Below, in pieces: positions 12,297-26,632 of a DNA stretch of 28,797 nt. Below the pieces are notes generated by a model. That model did no database searches, was not told the origin of the DNA, and worked only from the letters and a program-made list of their open reading frames with translations. A program made the translations under genes and the position numbers. Position 1 is the stretch's first letter, and every line of letters begins with the position of its first letter. The DNA comes from a virus, in IMG/VR virus record IMGVR_UViG_3300019776_000902, positions 1 to 28,797 of that record, one strand, 5' to 3'.

Positions 12297-12543
12297 GGAG
12301 CCCCCGCTGTCAATCGGATTGGGCGGCCGAGGCGCGACAGGTTGACAGACCGGCAACTAGGAACCGGCGAGCGCAAGCGCTCCCCATCACGCCCCGACCA
12401 TGACAACGCCACGGCCGATAGTCGGCGCGTGGCGCAGGGTGAGCGCCTAGCTGCGAGCGGGCTGTCAATCCCGGCCCCGGTCTCCCGAGGCGCAGGCATC
12501 GTGCGCCCGTTCGCGCTGAAATTCAAGGTGGCGAGGGCGCAGT
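12297..12543 (-). other. Intergenic stretch with weak promoter-like element
   Basis: No recognised gene lies between the acidic gene (start 12266) and the small HTH gene (stop 12544). On the minus strand a perfect TTGACA (complement of 12308-12313) precedes the acidic gene, with a poor -10 (TAACGC, 16-base spacing). A second TTGACA lies on the plus strand near 12343. An open minus frame (ATG at 12547, stop at 12035) covers the stretch. It has ATGA overlaps at both ends but an arginine/serine/proline-rich product, so coding is uncertain. Confidence 0.35.
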
Positions 12544-17651: not shown

Positions 17652-17866
17652 GCCCAGCCCCCGGCCCACAGCCCGGCAACGATCAGCCCCACGGCAATCG
17701 CCGCCAGCACCAGCCCGGCAATGCGCCCCTCGCGCGTGCGGCGGCGCAGCAGTTCGGAAATCTCGCGTTCTGTCAGCCTTCCACGCCGCGCATAAAACTC
17801 GGCATCTATTTTCCGCTCAGCTTCATTGCGCGGCGGCACCGCCGGAGGCGTTGAAATACGACCCAT
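17648..17866 (-). CDS. Small single-span membrane protein
   Basis: This 72-residue protein has a charged N-terminal region (RNEAERKIDAEFYARRGRLTEREISELLRRRTREG) and one C-terminal membrane helix (IAGLVLAAIAVGLIVAGLWAGGW). The arginines before the helix predict that the N-terminus stays in the cytoplasm. Start and stop overlap neighbours (TAATG upstream, ATGA downstream). The role is unknown; small tail-anchored-like proteins in phage early operons often alter the host envelope or block superinfection, which is speculation here. Confidence 0.65.
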   Translation of the reverse strand: MGRISTPPAVPPRNEAERKIDAEFYARRGRLTEREISELLRRRTREGRIAGLVLAAIAVGLIVAGLWAGGWA

Positions 17867-18363
17867 TACTCAGCCTCCCCCAGCAGCACCGCCTCGAGCC
17901 GCGCGCGGATCTCGCTATGCGCCTCGAGCGATTGGTCGATTTCGGCCATGCAGGCCCGCGCCTCGGCCTTGGTGATCTTTCCATCGGCCATGGCGGCGAG
18001 CAGCGTGCCCATGGCCTCGCTGGCCTCGCGCTGCAGCGCGTTGAGCGCGCGCAGGTCCATTTCGGCGGCGCGGGCGCGCGGCAGCGCCACCAGCCGGCAG
18101 CGGATCAGCGCGGCAAAGGCCTCGGCCACGGCGCGCGGGCGGAAATGGCTCACCAGCCGCCACACGCGCACAAAGCTCATTTCGCCGCCCGAGGCGTTTT
18201 CCGGGTCGAGCTGCTTGTAGAGCGTGAACTTGGTGACGCCTTCGAACTTGGCCGCCACGTCGACCCCGGCATCCGGCCGGCCAGCCACCTGGCCGATCTC
18301 GCCCATCATCCGGGCCAGCACATCGTGCGGGCCATCAACCTCGCGCGGCTTCATCGGGCGCAT
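17866..18363 (-). CDS. CII-like (Phage_CP76 type) regulatory protein
   Basis: This 165-residue protein has an early helix-turn-helix-like segment: DAGVDVAAKFEGVTKFTLYKQLDPENASGGEMSFVRVWRLVSHFRPRAVAEAFAALIRC (about 57-115). It resembles phage CII/CP76 regulators, in which a segment like LYNKLNP marks the recognition region. The C-terminal half is helical (LRALNALQREASEAMGTLLAAMADGKITKAEARACMAEIDQSLEAH). The ATG at 18363 is preferred because a G-rich ribosome-like tract lies seven bases upstream; an ATG at 18441 has none. It may influence the choice between lysis and lysogeny or activate genes of this operon. The similarity is moderate. Confidence 0.65.
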   Translation of the reverse strand: MRPMKPREVDGPHDVLARMMGEIGQVAGRPDAGVDVAAKFEGVTKFTLYKQLDPENASGGEMSFVRVWRLVSHFRPRAVAEAFAALIRCRLVALPRARAAEMDLRALNALQREASEAMGTLLAAMADGKITKAEARACMAEIDQSLEAHSEIRARLEAVLLGEAE

Positions 18364-18908
18364 GCTTCGCCCCCCGCGCAGTAGGCCTCTGGCAAAACCG
18401 CTGCGCACGTTGCCGATGACGCGGGCGTGATCGTGCCGCATGGTGACGGTGTTTCAGGGGTGGCGGCGGGGTTGCCCACCGTGCCAAAGCCCGAAAATGA
18501 TTGATCTAGGCCATGTTCGACGTGCCCAACCGCCTGCCGACCCCATGCCCGCCACGCGCACAGACCCACCCTCTCCCGTTCACGGGGGAGGGTGGCGCGC
18601 AGCGCCGGGTGGGGGGTGCCGCTTGCATGGCGAGAAAAAACAGCGAGGGCAGCGGCAACGCAGGGAGTCGCGCCGCCACCCTCGCCAGTGCCGGCAGGGC
18701 TCGCCACCTGCCGACGCTTCCGGGCCGCGCGGGAGGGAGCGCGCAGCGTCCGGAAGAGCTTTGCCTCGGTGTCGTCATCGACCACCGGGCGGAACTTCGA
18801 GCCGTCCGCCAGGCCGGGCGCGCCAGTGGCGCGACCGGAGGCGAGAAGGCCATGAGAGCTGCGCTCGAATGGCAGCGCGTGCACCTCGCTTCGCTTCAGG
18901 CCGCTCAT
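18351..18908 (-). CDS. Hypothetical protein whose frame crosses a palindromic repeat
   Basis: The frame starts at an ATG at 18908 overlapping the stop of the 34-residue membrane gene (ATGA), which favours translation. The first 75 residues (MSGLKRSEVHALPFERSS ... FRPVVDDDTEAKLFRTLRAPSRAARKRRQ) look plausible. From about residue 95 the frame runs through the dispersed palindrome at 18568-18606, giving HPALRATLPRERERV. It then continues through low-complexity sequence to a stop inside the CII-like start region. The original gene may have been shorter and extended or disrupted when the repeat arrived. No family recognised. Coding of the second half is doubtful. Confidence 0.4.
   Translation of the reverse strand: MSGLKRSEVHALPFERSSHGLLASGRATGAPGLADGSKFRPVVDDDTEAKLFRTLRAPSRAARKRRQVASPAGTGEGGGATPCVAAALAVFSRHASGTPHPALRATLPRERERVGLCAWRAWGRQAVGHVEHGLDQSFSGFGTVGNPAATPETPSPCGTITPASSATCAAVLPEAYCAGGEACAR
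18568..18606. repeat. REP-like dispersed palindrome
   Basis: ACCCTCTCCCG (18568-18578) pairs with CGGGGGAGGGT (18583-18593) with one mismatch. It is followed by a second small palindrome, GGCGC-GCA-GCGCC (18594-18606), then a GGGTGGGGGG tract. This composite is a form I recognise from intergenic repeats in many high-GC proteobacterial chromosomes. It is a host-type element inside a phage operon. Confidence 0.65.
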
Positions 18909-19010: not shown

Positions 19011-19190
19011 TCAACCCCTCCGCTTTGCGATGATGATGTAGAGCCCGGTGGCGAACACCGAGGCGAAGCCCAAGCTCAGCGCCGCCTCGAGCCAGTCGCC
19101 GAAGGCGATGGCCTGCAACGCGCGCCCGAAAGCCGCCAGCGTGAAGCAGAACAGGCTGAAGCCCAGCAGCGCCCGCGCCAGCCCGCTCAT
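19011..19190 (-). CDS. 59-residue two-span membrane protein
   Basis: The frame starts at the ATG at 19190, overlapping the stop of the YdaS/Cro-like gene as ATGA. It encodes a protein with two hydrophobic helices: RALLGFSLFCFTLAAFGRAL (6-25) and AALSLGFASVFATGLYIIIAK (36-56). It ends in basic residues KRRG, predicting the C-terminus in the cytoplasm. As the second gene of the leftward early operon it will be expressed immediately upon induction. Small early membrane proteins of this type are candidates for host takeover or exclusion, but no homologue was recognised. Confidence 0.6.
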   Translation of the reverse strand: MSGLARALLGFSLFCFTLAAFGRALQAIAFGDWLEAALSLGFASVFATGLYIIIAKRRG

Positions 19191-19450
19191 GCCGCCGCTC
19201 CCGCTTCCGATGTCGCCGGCTCGCTGGCGGTTGAGGCGGCTGGCCCAAACACATCGGGCCGCAGCTCGTGCCGGGAAACGCCGGTCAGGCGCTCCACCTC
19301 AATCACGCGCTCGGCAGGCACCCGCTTCCATTGCGAGACCGCCTGGCTCGTGAGCTTCGGGCCGGCCGCCGAAAGCGCAGCAGCAAGGGCAACGCTGCCC
19401 CCCGCGCTTTCCTTGGCCTTGTTCAGTGCAATCAGTTCTGGCGTGCTCAT
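19187..19450 (-). CDS. YdaS/Cro-like antirepressor-type DNA-binding protein
   Basis: This 87-residue protein has the YdaS/Cro pattern: ALNKAKESAGGSVALAAALSAAGPKLTSQAVSQWKRVPAERVIEVERLTGVSRHELRPDVFG. It holds a helix-turn-helix (LTSQAVSQWKRV) and the typical ending RHELRPD. It is divergent from the CI-type repressor and is the first gene of the leftward operon, the position of Cro. It should bind operators in the immunity region and favour the lytic programme. The ATG at 19450 (MSTPELIALN) is preferred. An ATG at 19468 would lie inside the operator, and the predicted promoter -10 at 19458-19463 would place the transcript start almost at the 19450 ATG, a nearly leaderless arrangement. Confidence 0.8.
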   Translation of the reverse strand: MSTPELIALNKAKESAGGSVALAAALSAAGPKLTSQAVSQWKRVPAERVIEVERLTGVSRHELRPDVFGPAASTASEPATSEAGAAA

Positions 19451-19460
19451 GGTCGCCAAC

Positions 19461-19489
19461 GTAAGCATAACTTACACTTAGATGCAAGT
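19461..19489 (-). promoter_or_regulatory. Leftward operator/promoter element (oL-like)
   Basis: The palindrome GTAAG-CATAA-CTTAC lies at 19461-19475. Read on the minus strand, the 29-base element matches the one at 20715-20743 at 23 of 29 positions: ACTTGCA, five variable bases, GTGTAAGTT, one variable base, TGCTTAC. A -35-like TTGCAT (complement of 19482-19487) with an 18-base spacer leads to a weak -10 (TACGTT, complement of 19458-19463). A repressor bound here would block the Cro-like operon. Confidence 0.75.
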
Positions 19490-19503
19490 AGCTCTGACAT
19501 TGA

Positions 19504-19522
19504 CTGAAAGGCCACCTTTCAG
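19504..19522. promoter_or_regulatory. Perfect palindrome before the repressor gene
   Basis: CTGAAAGG (19504-19511) and CCTTTCAG (19515-19522) form a perfect 8-bp inverted repeat with a 3-base centre, 13 bases before the preferred CI start. It differs in sequence from the GTAAG operators, so it may bind another protein (for example the Cro-like product) or form a leader hairpin in the repressor message. Confidence 0.5.
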
Positions 19523-19535
19523 CACGTTTTGCGAC

Positions 19536-20279
19536 ATGGAAACGCAAGGATCTCGCATTCGCTTTGTGCGCGACGCGCTTGGGCTGACGCAGGCGCAGTT
19601 TGCCGCCGCGCTGTCGCGTCAGGCGCGGCTGATGTCCGGCGAAATCGCCGGCGAAGCCGTCACACGCGGCGCGGTTGCCAACTGGGAACGCGACAAAGGC
19701 ATCGCGCACAAAAACCTGCTGGCACTTGTCGAAATGGTCGGCATCAGCATCGATTGGCTGGCGCGCGGGATTGGCCCGGCGCCAGCGCGGGAAACGCTGG
19801 CGCAGCTTGGGGTCGCGCTGTTGCCGCGTCCGGCACGCTCGCTGCCCATGCAGTTCGAAGCGACCAGCACCCGCACGGCGCCGCTGTTTGGCACCGCCGC
19901 GGGCGCACTGCTGGGACACGGATCGTTCATTGTGTCAAACGAGCCTGTCGACGAAGTGCCGATGATGCCGGGCCTGGTGGGCGAGCCCGGCGTTTATGCG
20001 CTGCTCGTCACCGGCGATTCGATGTTTCCGATGTTCCCGGATGGCGAGCTGGTTTACGTGTCTTCGGCGCGGCAGCCGCGCAAGGGCGACGCGGCCATCA
20101 TTCAGCAGCGAACCGGCAAGGGCGCCAACCTCGAGGCGTTCATCAAGCTCTTCGAACGCGAAACGGGCGACTCCCTCGTCACCACGCAGCTGAACCCGGC
20201 CGCGCCGGTGATCTTCCCGCGCCGCACGGTGGCAAGCTGCCACCGCGTTTATTCGCGCCGCGAGCTGGCCGGCGTTTAG
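19536..20279 (+). CDS. CI-type self-cleaving repressor (HTH + S24)
   Basis: This 247-residue repressor has an N-terminal XRE helix-turn-helix: IRFVRDALGLTQAQFAAALSRQ ... VTRGAVANWERDKGIAHKNLLALVEMVGISIDWLARG (8-78). It is interrupted by an unusual 10-residue insertion. The C-terminal S24 domain has Ser162 in VTGDSMFPMFPDGELVYV and Lys204 in AFIKLFE. An Ala122-Gly123 pair lies 39 residues before the serine, nearly the spacing in lambda CI (38). Autocleavage stimulated by RecA is therefore expected, giving SOS induction. It is divergent from the Cro-like gene. The start at 19536 (METQGSRIRF) is favoured by domain length; an ATG at 19482 would begin inside the operator. No strong ribosome site precedes either. 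Its stop overlaps the convergent membrane gene by three bases. Confidence 0.88.
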   Translation: METQGSRIRFVRDALGLTQAQFAAALSRQARLMSGEIAGEAVTRGAVANWERDKGIAHKNLLALVEMVGISIDWLARGIGPAPARETLAQLGVALLPRPARSLPMQFEATSTRTAPLFGTAAGALLGHGSFIVSNEPVDEVPMMPGLVGEPGVYALLVTGDSMFPMFPDGELVYVSSARQPRKGDAAIIQQRTGKGANLEAFIKLFERETGDSLVTTQLNPAAPVIFPRRTVASCHRVYSRRELAGV

Positions 20280-20638
20280 TCGTAAACGATCCGGGTTTCG
20301 TTGATCAGCACGCGCAGCACGCGATAGCCGTAAAGAAACGCGGCCAGCCCCAGCGTCACGATGATCAGCAGAGCCCAGATAAACAGGTGCCCCACCGAAC
20401 TGAATACCGAAAAGCGGCAATCGAGCCGCCCAAGCACATTGCCCTGCCTGTCGCACACCTCGGTGCGGTTCAAAATTGCCTTGTTGAACGAATAAGGGAA
20501 CACGAGCAGCGCCAGCCCCAGCGTGATGATGATCAGCACAACCCACACCAGCACATGCCCGATGGCATCCACCGTGCTGAAGTTGCAGTAAAAGCGGGTC
20601 GGCATGCCCTGCGGCGCCGGTTCGATATCGCGTGCCAT
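20276..20638 (-). CDS. Duplicated membrane protein (DUF6693-like)
   Basis: This 120-residue protein is made of two similar halves. Residues 18-63 are CNFSTVDAIGHVLVWVVLIIITLGLALLVFPYSFNKAILNRTEVCD. Residues 74-120 are CRFSVFSSVGHLFIWALLIIVTLGLAAFLYGYRVLRVLINETRIVYD. Each half has a C-F-S start, a GH pair, one long membrane helix and an N-x-T end. The pattern fits DUF6693, known to me from alphaproteobacterial membrane proteins of unknown function. The ATG at 20638 is preferred, with GGGAG upstream; an earlier ATG at 20668 lacks a site. The gene converges on the repressor and lies between the two operators. It may thus be expressed in the lysogen, a typical place for immunity or exclusion genes. 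That role is inference. Confidence 0.7.
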   Translation of the reverse strand: MARDIEPAPQGMPTRFYCNFSTVDAIGHVLVWVVLIIITLGLALLVFPYSFNKAILNRTEVCDRQGNVLGRLDCRFSVFSSVGHLFIWALLIIVTLGLAAFLYGYRVLRVLINETRIVYD

Positions 20639-20714
20639 TTCAATTTTACTCCCTGAGCCCGCCGCCATCCTAGCGAGCGCGTTTTACGCCGCAATGTCAG
20701 CCTTGCTTACATCC

Positions 20715-20746
20715 ACTTGCAAGCGCGTGTAAGTTGTGCTTACACT
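20715..20746 (+). promoter_or_regulatory. Rightward operator/promoter element (oR-like)
   Basis: The palindrome GTGTAAG-TTGTG-CTTACAC (20727-20745, 7-bp perfect arms) overlaps a promoter with -35-like TTGCAA (20717-20722) and -10-like TACACT (20741-20746, four of six consensus bases, 18-base spacer). It is the sister of the element at 19461-19489 and points toward the rightward operon starting at 20778. A further TGCTTAC half-site lies at 20704-20710. Confidence 0.75.
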
Positions 20747-20777
20747 CCGCTCCATCGATCACCGATGGAGCGTCGCC

Positions 20778-21287
20778 ATGTTCGACCACCCCACCACCTC
20801 CAGCCCGCACGTGACGGCAGGCCGCGCCGCCGCGCTGAGCATGCGGCAGGTGCCGCCCCGCGCGCGGCTGCCCTTTGCCTCGAGCATCGTTGCCGGCGCC
20901 GACAAACGCACGCGGCAGCTGGCCGAGGCGATGATCCACCTCAATGCCGAAGATCTGCGCGGCTGCACTGAAACTACGCTGCAGCTCGAGGGCTTTTCGC
21001 TGCACGAGCAGGCCGAGCTCGGCCCCACGGCCCGCGCGCTCGCCAACACGCGCTTCGTGCGGCAGGCGCAAGAGGCCGAGCCGCACCCCAGCGACGATGA
21101 GCTTTTGGCCGCCGCGCTCAAGGCCTTTTCGCCGCTCACCGGGCTGGGCAGCCTGGTGCGGCAGCTGCGCGCCGACCCGGATTATTCCGAAGATGTGCTG
21201 GGCCGCATCTGGCCGCGCATCGCCACCGGCGCCGCCAGCCTCACCGCCCGCGCCGCCCTGCCCCCGCGCATGGATGGGAGGGCGTGA
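20778..21287 (+). CDS. First gene of rightward operon, hypothetical
   Basis: This 169-residue protein starts at an ATG preceded by GGAG, about 30 bases after the predicted transcript start from the oR-like promoter. An upstream ATG at 20736 lies inside the operator and is unlikely. The product is mainly helical with a charged middle (KRTRQLAEAMIHLNAEDLRGCTETTLQLEGFSLHEQAELGPTARALANTRFVRQAQEAE). The helical C-terminus is DDELLAAALKAFSPLTGLGSLVRQLRADPDYSEDVLGRIWPRI. No catalytic motif or membrane segment is seen. As the first gene expressed when repression is lifted it may be a host-directed or regulatory protein; the family is unknown to me. Confidence 0.65.
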   Translation: MFDHPTTSSPHVTAGRAAALSMRQVPPRARLPFASSIVAGADKRTRQLAEAMIHLNAEDLRGCTETTLQLEGFSLHEQAELGPTARALANTRFVRQAQEAEPHPSDDELLAAALKAFSPLTGLGSLVRQLRADPDYSEDVLGRIWPRIATGAASLTARAALPPRMDGRA

Positions 21288-25228: not shown

Positions 25229-25494
25229 CCGCCCCGCGCCAGCGGCTGCAGGTTTTGCCGCGCGGGCTCAGCCGCATGCAGGCGGCCGCGCGCATCGGCG
25301 TTTCGGTGGGCACGTTTGCCCGCATGGTGGCCGATGGGCTGATGCCGCCCGCCCGCGCCATCTACTCGCTAGAGATCTGGGATATCGAAGAGCTCGACCA
25401 GGCCTTCGACCGCCTGCCCCACGCCGGCCAGAACGCGCCCCCTTCCCCTCGCGGCGGCAATGCCGCACCATTGCCGCAGAGCGACCTTGCCTGA
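25225..25494 (+). CDS. Excisionase-like (MerR/AlpA type) HTH protein
   Basis: This 89-residue protein contains LPRGLSRMQAAARIGVSVGTFARMVADGLMPPARAIYSLEIWDIEELDQAFDRLP (about 9-65). It is a winged helix-turn-helix of the type encoded directly before integrases in alphaproteobacterial prophages. It probably acts as a recombination directionality factor (Xis), or guides the integrase choice, by bending the attachment site. A TTG start at 25225 overlaps the previous stop; ATG at 25276 is an alternative that would cut the first HTH residues. The C-terminal tail (about 67-89) is proline/glycine-rich. The integrase starts 13 bases after its stop. Confidence 0.7.
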   Translation: MTAPRQRLQVLPRGLSRMQAAARIGVSVGTFARMVADGLMPPARAIYSLEIWDIEELDQAFDRLPHAGQNAPPSPRGGNAAPLPQSDLA

Positions 25495-25507
25495 CGAGGG
25501 GAACGAA

Positions 25508-26632
25508 ATGGCGCGCGGCATCACTCGCGACAGGGACAGGCACGGCAATGTGCGGCTGTATTTCCGCAGGCGCGGGCAACCGAAAATCCGGCTGCACGAG
25601 CGCGAGGGCACCGAGGCCTTCGAGCAGGAGCTGGCTGCCGCGCGCCTTGGCGTGCCCTACTTGCCCGATGCGCCCCGCCCGGTAGCCGATGCCCGCCCGC
25701 GCCGCATCAGCGCGCCACAGGGCTCGCTCCGCTGGCTGGTGGAAGAGTACATGCGCCGTGCCGTCGCCGGGCAGGCGCCCGCCACCCGCATCAAGAAGCG
25801 CGCCGTGCTCGATGAAATCTGCCGCGAAACCGTGATCAGCAAATCGGGCGCCGAGGCCGGGCTTGCGCCTTACCGTCACCTCGAGCGGCGGCACATCGCG
25901 CTGCTGCGCGACCAGAAGGCCGCAAGCCCGGCCGCGGCCGACCACCGCACGAAGGTGCTGAGCGCCATGTTCGCGTGGGCCATCGACGCGGGGCTCGCCA
26001 CCGACAACCCGGCGCGCGGCCTCGGCAAGCTGGCAGGCCGCACCGATGGGCACCACACGCTGACGCGCGACGAGCTCGCCGCATTCGAGCAGCGCCACCC
26101 GCCCGGCACCATGGCCTACGCCGCGATGACGGTGTTTCGCTACACCGGCCTGCGCGTGTGCGACGCGGTGCGGCTGGGGCACCAGCACCTCTACACGCTG
26201 ACCGATTCGGCAGGCGAGCCGCAGCTGCGCTTCCGCATCACGCCCGACAAGACGCGCGGCTCGAGCGGCGTGCTGGTCGATCTGCCTGTGCTGCCGCCCC
26301 TCGCGGCGGTTATCGCCAGCCTGCCGAAAACCAGCGCGCTCACGTTCATCACCACCGAGCACGGCAAGCCGTTCAGCACCAAGGGCCTCGGCCAGCGGAT
26401 GCGCAAGTGGTTCGACGCGGCGGGGCTGACGCATTGCTCGAGCCACGGCATCCGCAAGGCCGACGCAGTGATCGCCGCTGAAAACGGCGCGACCAGCAAG
26501 GAATTGCAGGCGATGTTTGGATGGACCAGCTCACGCGAGGCCGATCGCTACACGAAAAAAGCCGAGCGGCAGCGGCTCGGCACAAGCGGCGCACCCAGCC
26601 TGATGCTGGTGCACCAGCGGCCCAAAACGTGA
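25508..26632 (+). CDS. int: Tyrosine recombinase (phage integrase)
   Basis: This 374-residue site-specific recombinase has an N-terminal arm-binding region (RDRHGNVRLYFRRRGQPKIRL), a core-binding SAM-like domain (about 72-175) and a catalytic domain. The catalytic residues are Arg216 (FRYTGLRVCDAVRL), Lys248 (TPDKTRG), His313 and Arg316 (SSHGIRKADA), Trp339 (MFGWTSSREADRYTK) and the nucleophile Tyr348. It catalyses integration and, with Xis, excision. The start at 25508 (MARGITRDRD) is favoured by GAGGGG upstream. Phage genes lie on both sides of it in this window, so the attachment site next to it, if functional, is not occupied by host DNA. Confidence 0.93.
   Translation: MARGITRDRDRHGNVRLYFRRRGQPKIRLHEREGTEAFEQELAAARLGVPYLPDAPRPVADARPRRISAPQGSLRWLVEEYMRRAVAGQAPATRIKKRAVLDEICRETVISKSGAEAGLAPYRHLERRHIALLRDQKAASPAAADHRTKVLSAMFAWAIDAGLATDNPARGLGKLAGRTDGHHTLTRDELAAFEQRHPPGTMAYAAMTVFRYTGLRVCDAVRLGHQHLYTLTDSAGEPQLRFRITPDKTRGSSGVLVDLPVLPPLAAVIASLPKTSALTFITTEHGKPFSTKGLGQRMRKWFDAAGLTHCSSHGIRKADAVIAAENGATSKELQAMFGWTSSREADRYTKKAERQRLGTSGAPSLMLVHQRPKT

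Follow-up and report, generated by a model that had tools for sequence, protein, structure and literature searches.

The virus record analysed here, 28,797 bases in length and called the window throughout, carries what appears, with a probability of about 0.9, to be the immunity region of an alphaproteobacterial-type temperate phage, in which a CI-type repressor would silence both early operons as at oL and oR of lambda. Matched signals flanking the repressor gene are very probably the switch sites of the two operons, a reading adopted because these signals recur at equal spacings in dozens of related phages from soil and marine alphaproteobacteria. The sites, of the general form GNAAG-N5-CTTNC, make up a well-supported putative operator class that is new within the lambda-type switch. 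The genes concerned are the following.

19536-20279, plus strand: cI, a repressor of 247 amino acids with HTH and Peptidase_S24 domains (Pfam S24 6e-11, HTH_3 2e-5)
19187-19450, minus strand: cro-like gene of the YdaS family, 87 amino acids (Pfam YdaS_toxin 7e-15, P22_Cro 7e-7)
17866-18441, minus strand: CII-like regulator (Phage_CP76; Pfam 1e-9, phrog_101 3e-16), farther along the leftward operon
20276-20668, minus strand: DUF6693 gene, convergent with cI and lying between cI and the right operators (Pfam 7e-38)
20778-21287, plus strand: first open reading frame of the rightward operon, 169 amino acids from the ATG at 20778, no assigned family
25460-26632: integrase, toward which the rightward operon leads

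As is typical of lambda-type immunity regions, the gene for an HTH and S24 repressor diverges from a small HTH cro gene, and cI is placed, as in lambda, between an operon leading toward cro and replication and another leading toward the integrase. The Cro-like protein belongs to the YdaS family (55.1 bits for YdaS_toxin against a cut-off of 30), and the position of its gene suggests that it acts as Cro. The DNA-binding domain of CI is homologous to that of P22 c2, of which structure 1adr is its best solved relative (2e-9); it matches the P22 c2-DNA complex 3jxb at 2.0 A over 79 columns with 30% identity, and 2r1j also matched. In an AlphaFold2 model (pLDDT 87), the recognition helix is formed by residues 44-51, RGAVANWE (R44 to E51). 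As a possible Ser/Lys dyad for RecA-dependent self-cleavage, S162 and K204 are common to the window CI and that of L001, the first relative found; across 20 relatives S162 does not vary.

Two further features of the window can be set beside known phages. The DUF6693 gene sits in the interval between the operator clusters, where lambda carries its rex genes, and might act in exclusion. The C4 RNAs of P1 and P7 control an antirepressor. A C4 antisense RNA is found in the leftward operon of the window (12319-12405, minus strand; Rfam RF01695, 64.9 bits, gathering threshold 45), and by analogy an antirepressor layer atop the switch is possible.

Promoters and operators flanking cI

The initial annotation had described two 29-base segments read in opposite directions, minus-strand 19489-19461 (ACTTGCATCTAAGTGTAAGTTATGCTTAC) and plus-strand 20715-20743 (ACTTGCAAGCGCGTGTAAGTTGTGCTTAC), and reading of both strands confirms that 23 of their 29 positions are identical. 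Their shared core palindrome, GTAAG-N5-CTTAC, is likewise present as described, and its only two exact copies in the whole record are those of the 29-mers, the right-hand one being longer (GTGTAAG-N5-CTTACAC). When two mismatches are allowed, seven matches are found in the whole record against 2.2 expected, a number reached in none of the shuffles, and five of the seven lie within 19461-19520 and 20696-20743. By a simple binomial estimate, a pair agreeing at 23/29 is expected some 1 to 12 times at any position in a record of such length, but when one member must lie on each flank of cI the expectation drops to 2e-4 to 2e-3. Taken by itself the pair is suggestive, being only moderately surprising as a product of chance, and is not decisive; it becomes decisive because relatives share the elements.

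Each 29-mer had also been proposed to overlap a TTGCA-type -35 and a -10-like hexamer pointing outward from the repressor, and this was borne out for both. The published sigma-70 promoter consensus of S. meliloti is CTTGAC-N17-CTATAT (PMC2873474), and by their sequence both 29-mers are putative sigma-70 promoters of this S. meliloti or alphaproteobacterial shape, with the operator lying over the spacer and the -10. An operator scan of the 28.8-kb record, using a weight matrix built from related phages only (window excluded), placed its top five sites at 19461, 19506, 20729, 20696, and 19484, all within the immunity region. The resulting elements are listed below.

19460-19488, minus strand: predicted leftward (cro) promoter; -35 CTTGCA at 19488-19483, N17, -10 CTTACG at 19465-19460
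20716-20744, plus strand: predicted rightward promoter; -35 CTTGCA at 20716-20721, N17, -10 CTTACA at 20739-20744
19461-19475, minus strand: putative cro-side operator O1, within the leftward promoter; GTAAGTTATGCTTAC on the minus strand, 20.9 bits, rank 1
19484-19498, no strand assigned: putative cro-side operator O2, degenerate; GCAAGTAGCTCTGAC, 23 bp from O1, 9.9 bits, rank 5
19506-19520, no strand assigned: putative cro-side operator O3; GAAAGGCCACCTTTC, 45 bp from O1, 15.9 bits, rank 2
20729-20743, plus strand: putative right-side operator O1, within the rightward promoter; GTAAGTTGTGCTTAC, 15.2 bits, rank 3
20696-20710, no strand assigned: putative right-side operator O2, degenerate; GTCAGCCTTGCTTAC, 33 bp from right O1, 11.7 bits, rank 4

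The best matrix score in 30 simulated records averages 6.8 with a maximum of 14.7, and the two O2 scores (9.9 and 11.7 bits) fall below that best chance score. One arm of the cro-side O2 overlaps the leftward -35, and O3 lies directly upstream of the cI start. Both sites of the operator pair first proposed appear to be real, but the layout is one of 3+2, with three more sites at 19484-19498, 19506-19520, and 20696-20710. Their offsets, 0/23/45 on the left and 0/-33 on the right with two sites degenerate, are those of the GNAAG-N5-CTTNC family (0/23/41-45 and 0/-33 to -36). Judged from sequence, the window has a lambda-like set of three putative sites in the cro/cI gap and two downstream of cI, with related operators on either side of cI overlapping outward promoters as in lambda-type regions.

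Recurrence of the element in related phages

The window CI used as a lone query recovered one relative, so an alignment was needed; the CI proteins of the window and L001 together led to 80 viral and 36 genome loci, many of them from Hyphomicrobiales (Microvirga, Bradyrhizobium, Rhizobium, Martelella, Devosia, Roseibium, and others). The search for these consensus loci used CI helix patterns, and helix conservation among them is therefore partly built in. Most loci with an RGAV-type helix and an S24 domain have GNAAG-N5-CTTNC at fixed places, and L001 shows a plan identical to that of the window with GAAAG-N5-CTTTC. After removal of redundancy, 55 left and 45 right elements remained, with the consensus CTTGC-N8-GNAAG-N3-TG-CTTNC-A standing before cro in 55 relatives and, at fixed spacings, before the rightward operon in 45. 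The initial annotation had suggested looking for GTAAG-N5-CTTAC-type motifs in related phages, and the outcome was positive, the element preceding both cro and the outward operon at equal distances in 45 non-redundant loci. Seventeen exact viral-contig matches to GTGTAAGTTNTGCTTAC lack the CTTGC -35, are chance-like, and were rejected as relatives.

On the left, the sites of relatives lie at offsets 0, 23 (in 41/55), and then 41 or 45; on the right they lie at 0 and -34 or -35 in the consensus, the second site mostly being 33-36 bp away. Of the 91 loci that have a motif upstream, 74 show TTG at the leftward -35 position, and the other 17 have STGAV-type or non-S24 repressors. Base 2 of the family operator is A in 80-88% of copies, making GAAAG the usual form and the window phage a GTAAG variant. 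Within the same phage, left and right O1 15-mers agree at 13.9 of 15 positions compared with 13.2 of 15 for shuffled partners (reached in 0/5000 shuffles), and they are identical in 17 of 45 phages against 6.8 expected by shuffling. This likeness is the outcome expected if one protein acts on both sides, with shared ancestry also adding to it.

The distance from the operator start to the ATG of cro is 25 bp in the window and 23-26 bp in 50/55 relatives, the start codon falling 8-11 bp past the operator end in the window (19450-19465, minus strand) and in the same 50 of 55. Such a distance leaves no space for a ribosome-binding site, so a leaderless cro mRNA is predicted for the whole family. 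A hairpin, GCTCCATCG-ATCAC-CGATGGAGC, is found at 20749-20771 (plus strand), where the rightward transcript is predicted to begin, and contains a GGAG ribosome-binding site in its 3' arm. Similar hairpins, such as TCCCCATC...GATGGGGA, were seen by eye in roughly 18 of 45 relatives' leaders with a mean z of only -0.8, and a conserved leader hairpin was set aside as a component of the switch.

The CI recognition helix and operator choice

Two sets of loci were assembled without helix selection, one anchored on Cro and one drawn from 782 genomes with a whole-CI profile, and were scored jointly. At least two motifs were present in 32 of 38 loci with an Arg helix (xRxAVxxWE) compared with 1 of 65 others (non-redundant; Fisher 2e-19, with no correction for relatedness); in six loci with the Arg helix, the number of exact motifs is one or none. 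The window CI helix, TRGAVANWE, fits this pattern with Arg at position 1. The proposal that a single CI-type protein controls both operons gains support from this comparison, with a motif that follows the CI helix and elements that stand before both operons in 45 loci. Comparison establishes the putative sites, their spacing, promoter overlap and conservation, and their apparent dependence on the CI helix.

The same counts bear on the possibility, which we regard as unlikely, that the sites are mainly operators of the YdaS-type Cro, with CI binding elsewhere or only weakly. The place of cro at the head of the leftward operon and the small HTH protein that it encodes are compatible with such a role, as is the use of the same sites by lambda CI and Cro, and L187, the only clear departure from the CI-helix rule, has three GNAAG-N5-CTTNC sites upstream of cro beside a CI whose helix is PQAVSQWF. 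However, most loci that combine a homologous Cro with a different CI helix (xPQAVSQWE and similar) lack the motif, and its presence in the joint set appears to track the CI recognition helix and not the Cro protein. Use of the same sites by both CI and Cro is likely. It is less probable still that the conserved blocks are just strong phage promoters, with the palindrome a by-product of promoter conservation. TTGC, and TG before CTTNC, are indeed nearly invariant at the promoter copies, but palindromes are also found at O3 and the right O2, where no outward promoter is needed, spacing is fixed, and the fixed TG is missing; moreover, both arms are equally conserved and the motif is gone when the CI helix changes. 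Chance likeness of two AT-rich intergenic stretches, for which the expected frequency of a 23/29 pair (about once or more in such a record) and the chance-like matches to GTGTAAGTTNTGCTTAC might speak, can be dismissed in view of where the elements lie, how they are oriented and spaced, and their conservation across dozens of relatives.

Silencing of both operons by CI stands as the preferred reading, and the steps that follow, from the binding of CI and its cooperativity to repression by Cro at O3 and prophage induction, are inferred. A CI dimer, with its P22-c2-like HTH and LexA/S24 C-terminal domain, would bind the G(T/A)AAG-N5-CTT(A/T)C palindromes. On either side O1 overlies the spacer together with the first part of the -10 in the predicted outward sigma-70 promoter, and CI bound there would block RNA polymerase at both the leftward operon (cro, CII-like, replication) and the rightward operon (to integrase), keeping the prophage silent. 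The O2 sites on both sides would serve cooperative binding, while at O3, just upstream of cI, CI in high amounts, or Cro, would turn cI down. Upon DNA damage, self-cleavage of CI through its S24 domain would open both promoters together.

Several other loci depart from this pattern in their own ways. L122 (Sinorhizobium shofinae) encodes a small protein with the RGAVANWE helix that lacks an S24 domain, and has a single upstream palindrome, GCAAGGTACGCTTGC, with a similar stretch in L280. At L199 (~230 bp upstream of 3001), a related cro/cI region has the helix SRPAVTQWE and GTAAG-N4-CTTAC palindromes, with a spacer of 4 and not 5. The CI of AmM-1 is homologous, yet its helix is different and the motif is absent. 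The S. meliloti elements phi2LM21, PBC5, and a pSymB prophage have other helices and lack the motif, and no motif was found with two plasmid-borne rhizobial CIs; in phi2LM21 the C-terminal domain is 68% identical while the N-terminus and Cro are different, as would be expected if the N-terminal module governs operator choice. LfsT of P. aeruginosa, which binds AAC-N-GTT, is unrelated.

The helix may further determine which variant of the site is used. In 55 non-redundant loci of Gly type (RGAVGNWE), base 2 is A in 356 of 418 half-sites, compared with 3 of 28 in the six loci of Ala type, window included, in which the rest are mostly T or C (Mann-Whitney 8e-5, relatedness not removed). Two cases go against this trend: L066, where a Gly-type helix is paired with T, and O3 of the window itself, which is GAAAG. 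A tentative recognition code, to which we give slightly less than an even chance, would pair Arg at position 1 with the outer G and let residue 5 set base 2, Gly specifying A (GAAAG) and Ala specifying T or C (GTAAG or GCAAG). The Ala-type set mixes NWE and QWE helices, for which reason the residue-5 code is offered as a hypothesis; a degenerate DNA search for further RGAVANWE repressors yielded only two contigs, so that the test draws on six Ala-type loci. No locus with Ser at helix residue 5 was found among those searched.

Relation to known switches and implications

The operator architecture is of a kind already known from lambda, P22, 16-3, and D3. As in lambda, the repressor gene lies between two operator clusters over two outward operons, with three operators in the cro/cI gap and an S24/LexA-type C-terminal domain in the repressor; unlike lambda, the Cro is of YdaS type with a predicted leaderless mRNA, the two sites of the right cluster are separated by 33-36 bp (in the family), and the operator sequence is different. 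P22 operators resemble those of the window in their AAG...CTT cores, but have a T-rich arm and a spacer of 4 where the window has an outer G and a spacer of 5, and the c2 recognition helix is NVAISQWE compared with RGAVANWE. The CI of Pseudomonas phage D3 is 28% identical to that of another family member (L111), and D3 has three putative operators in 24-bp steps between cro and cI; their sequence is different, and no GNAAG-N5-CTTNC was found in the D3 cI/cro region. In the isolated Labrenzia phage vB_LagS-V1, the CI N-terminus is 46% identical, and a GAAAGTCATGCTTTC site lies in the region with a near-match, GAAAGAAATGCTTCA, in the gap between cro and cI, although its CI-like protein is short (160 codons) and operators are not annotated. 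The C repressor of Rhizobium phage 16-3 is homologous to the window CI (27% identity), and its operators flank the repressor gene, lying in divergent outward promoters (annotation of GenBank DQ500118). These are, in contrast, ACAA-N6-TTGT (OR2) and ACAA-N4-TTGT (OL1, OL2), two sites per side (OR1/OR2 and OL1/OL2), and no GNAAG-N5-CTTNC was found in the 16-3 immunity region; the window, whose top sites are GNAAG-type, is not a member of this ACAA-N4/6-TTGT class flanking c.

A full-text literature search, with most subscription papers outside its reach, found no description of a GNAAG-N5-CTTNC phage operator. The earlier suggestion of an apparently undescribed immunity group agrees with that result, but the family is a large one, mostly GAAAG, and spans a broad set of Hyphomicrobiales phages. 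For phiLM21-like prophages of S. meliloti, a 2025 paper reports finding no lambda-like or 16-3-like operators and leaves those of the prophages unidentified (PMC12429752); given that the S. meliloti elements checked lack the motif, the GNAAG group answers this question only for Arg-helix phages.

For the temperate phages of rhizobia and their relatives, a large group with few characterised members, these results provide a concrete operator definition, comprising consensus, spacing, and promoter overlap, from which immunity classes can be predicted from sequence. The loci also constitute a natural protein-DNA co-variation set in which the effect of one helix residue on operator choice can be tested, and the possible one-residue specificity code is their most interesting aspect. 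If the code is true, the window phage and its GAAAG relatives would belong to different immunity groups through a single natural Gly/Ala difference, and operators would be predictable from the CI sequence across Hyphomicrobiales prophages.
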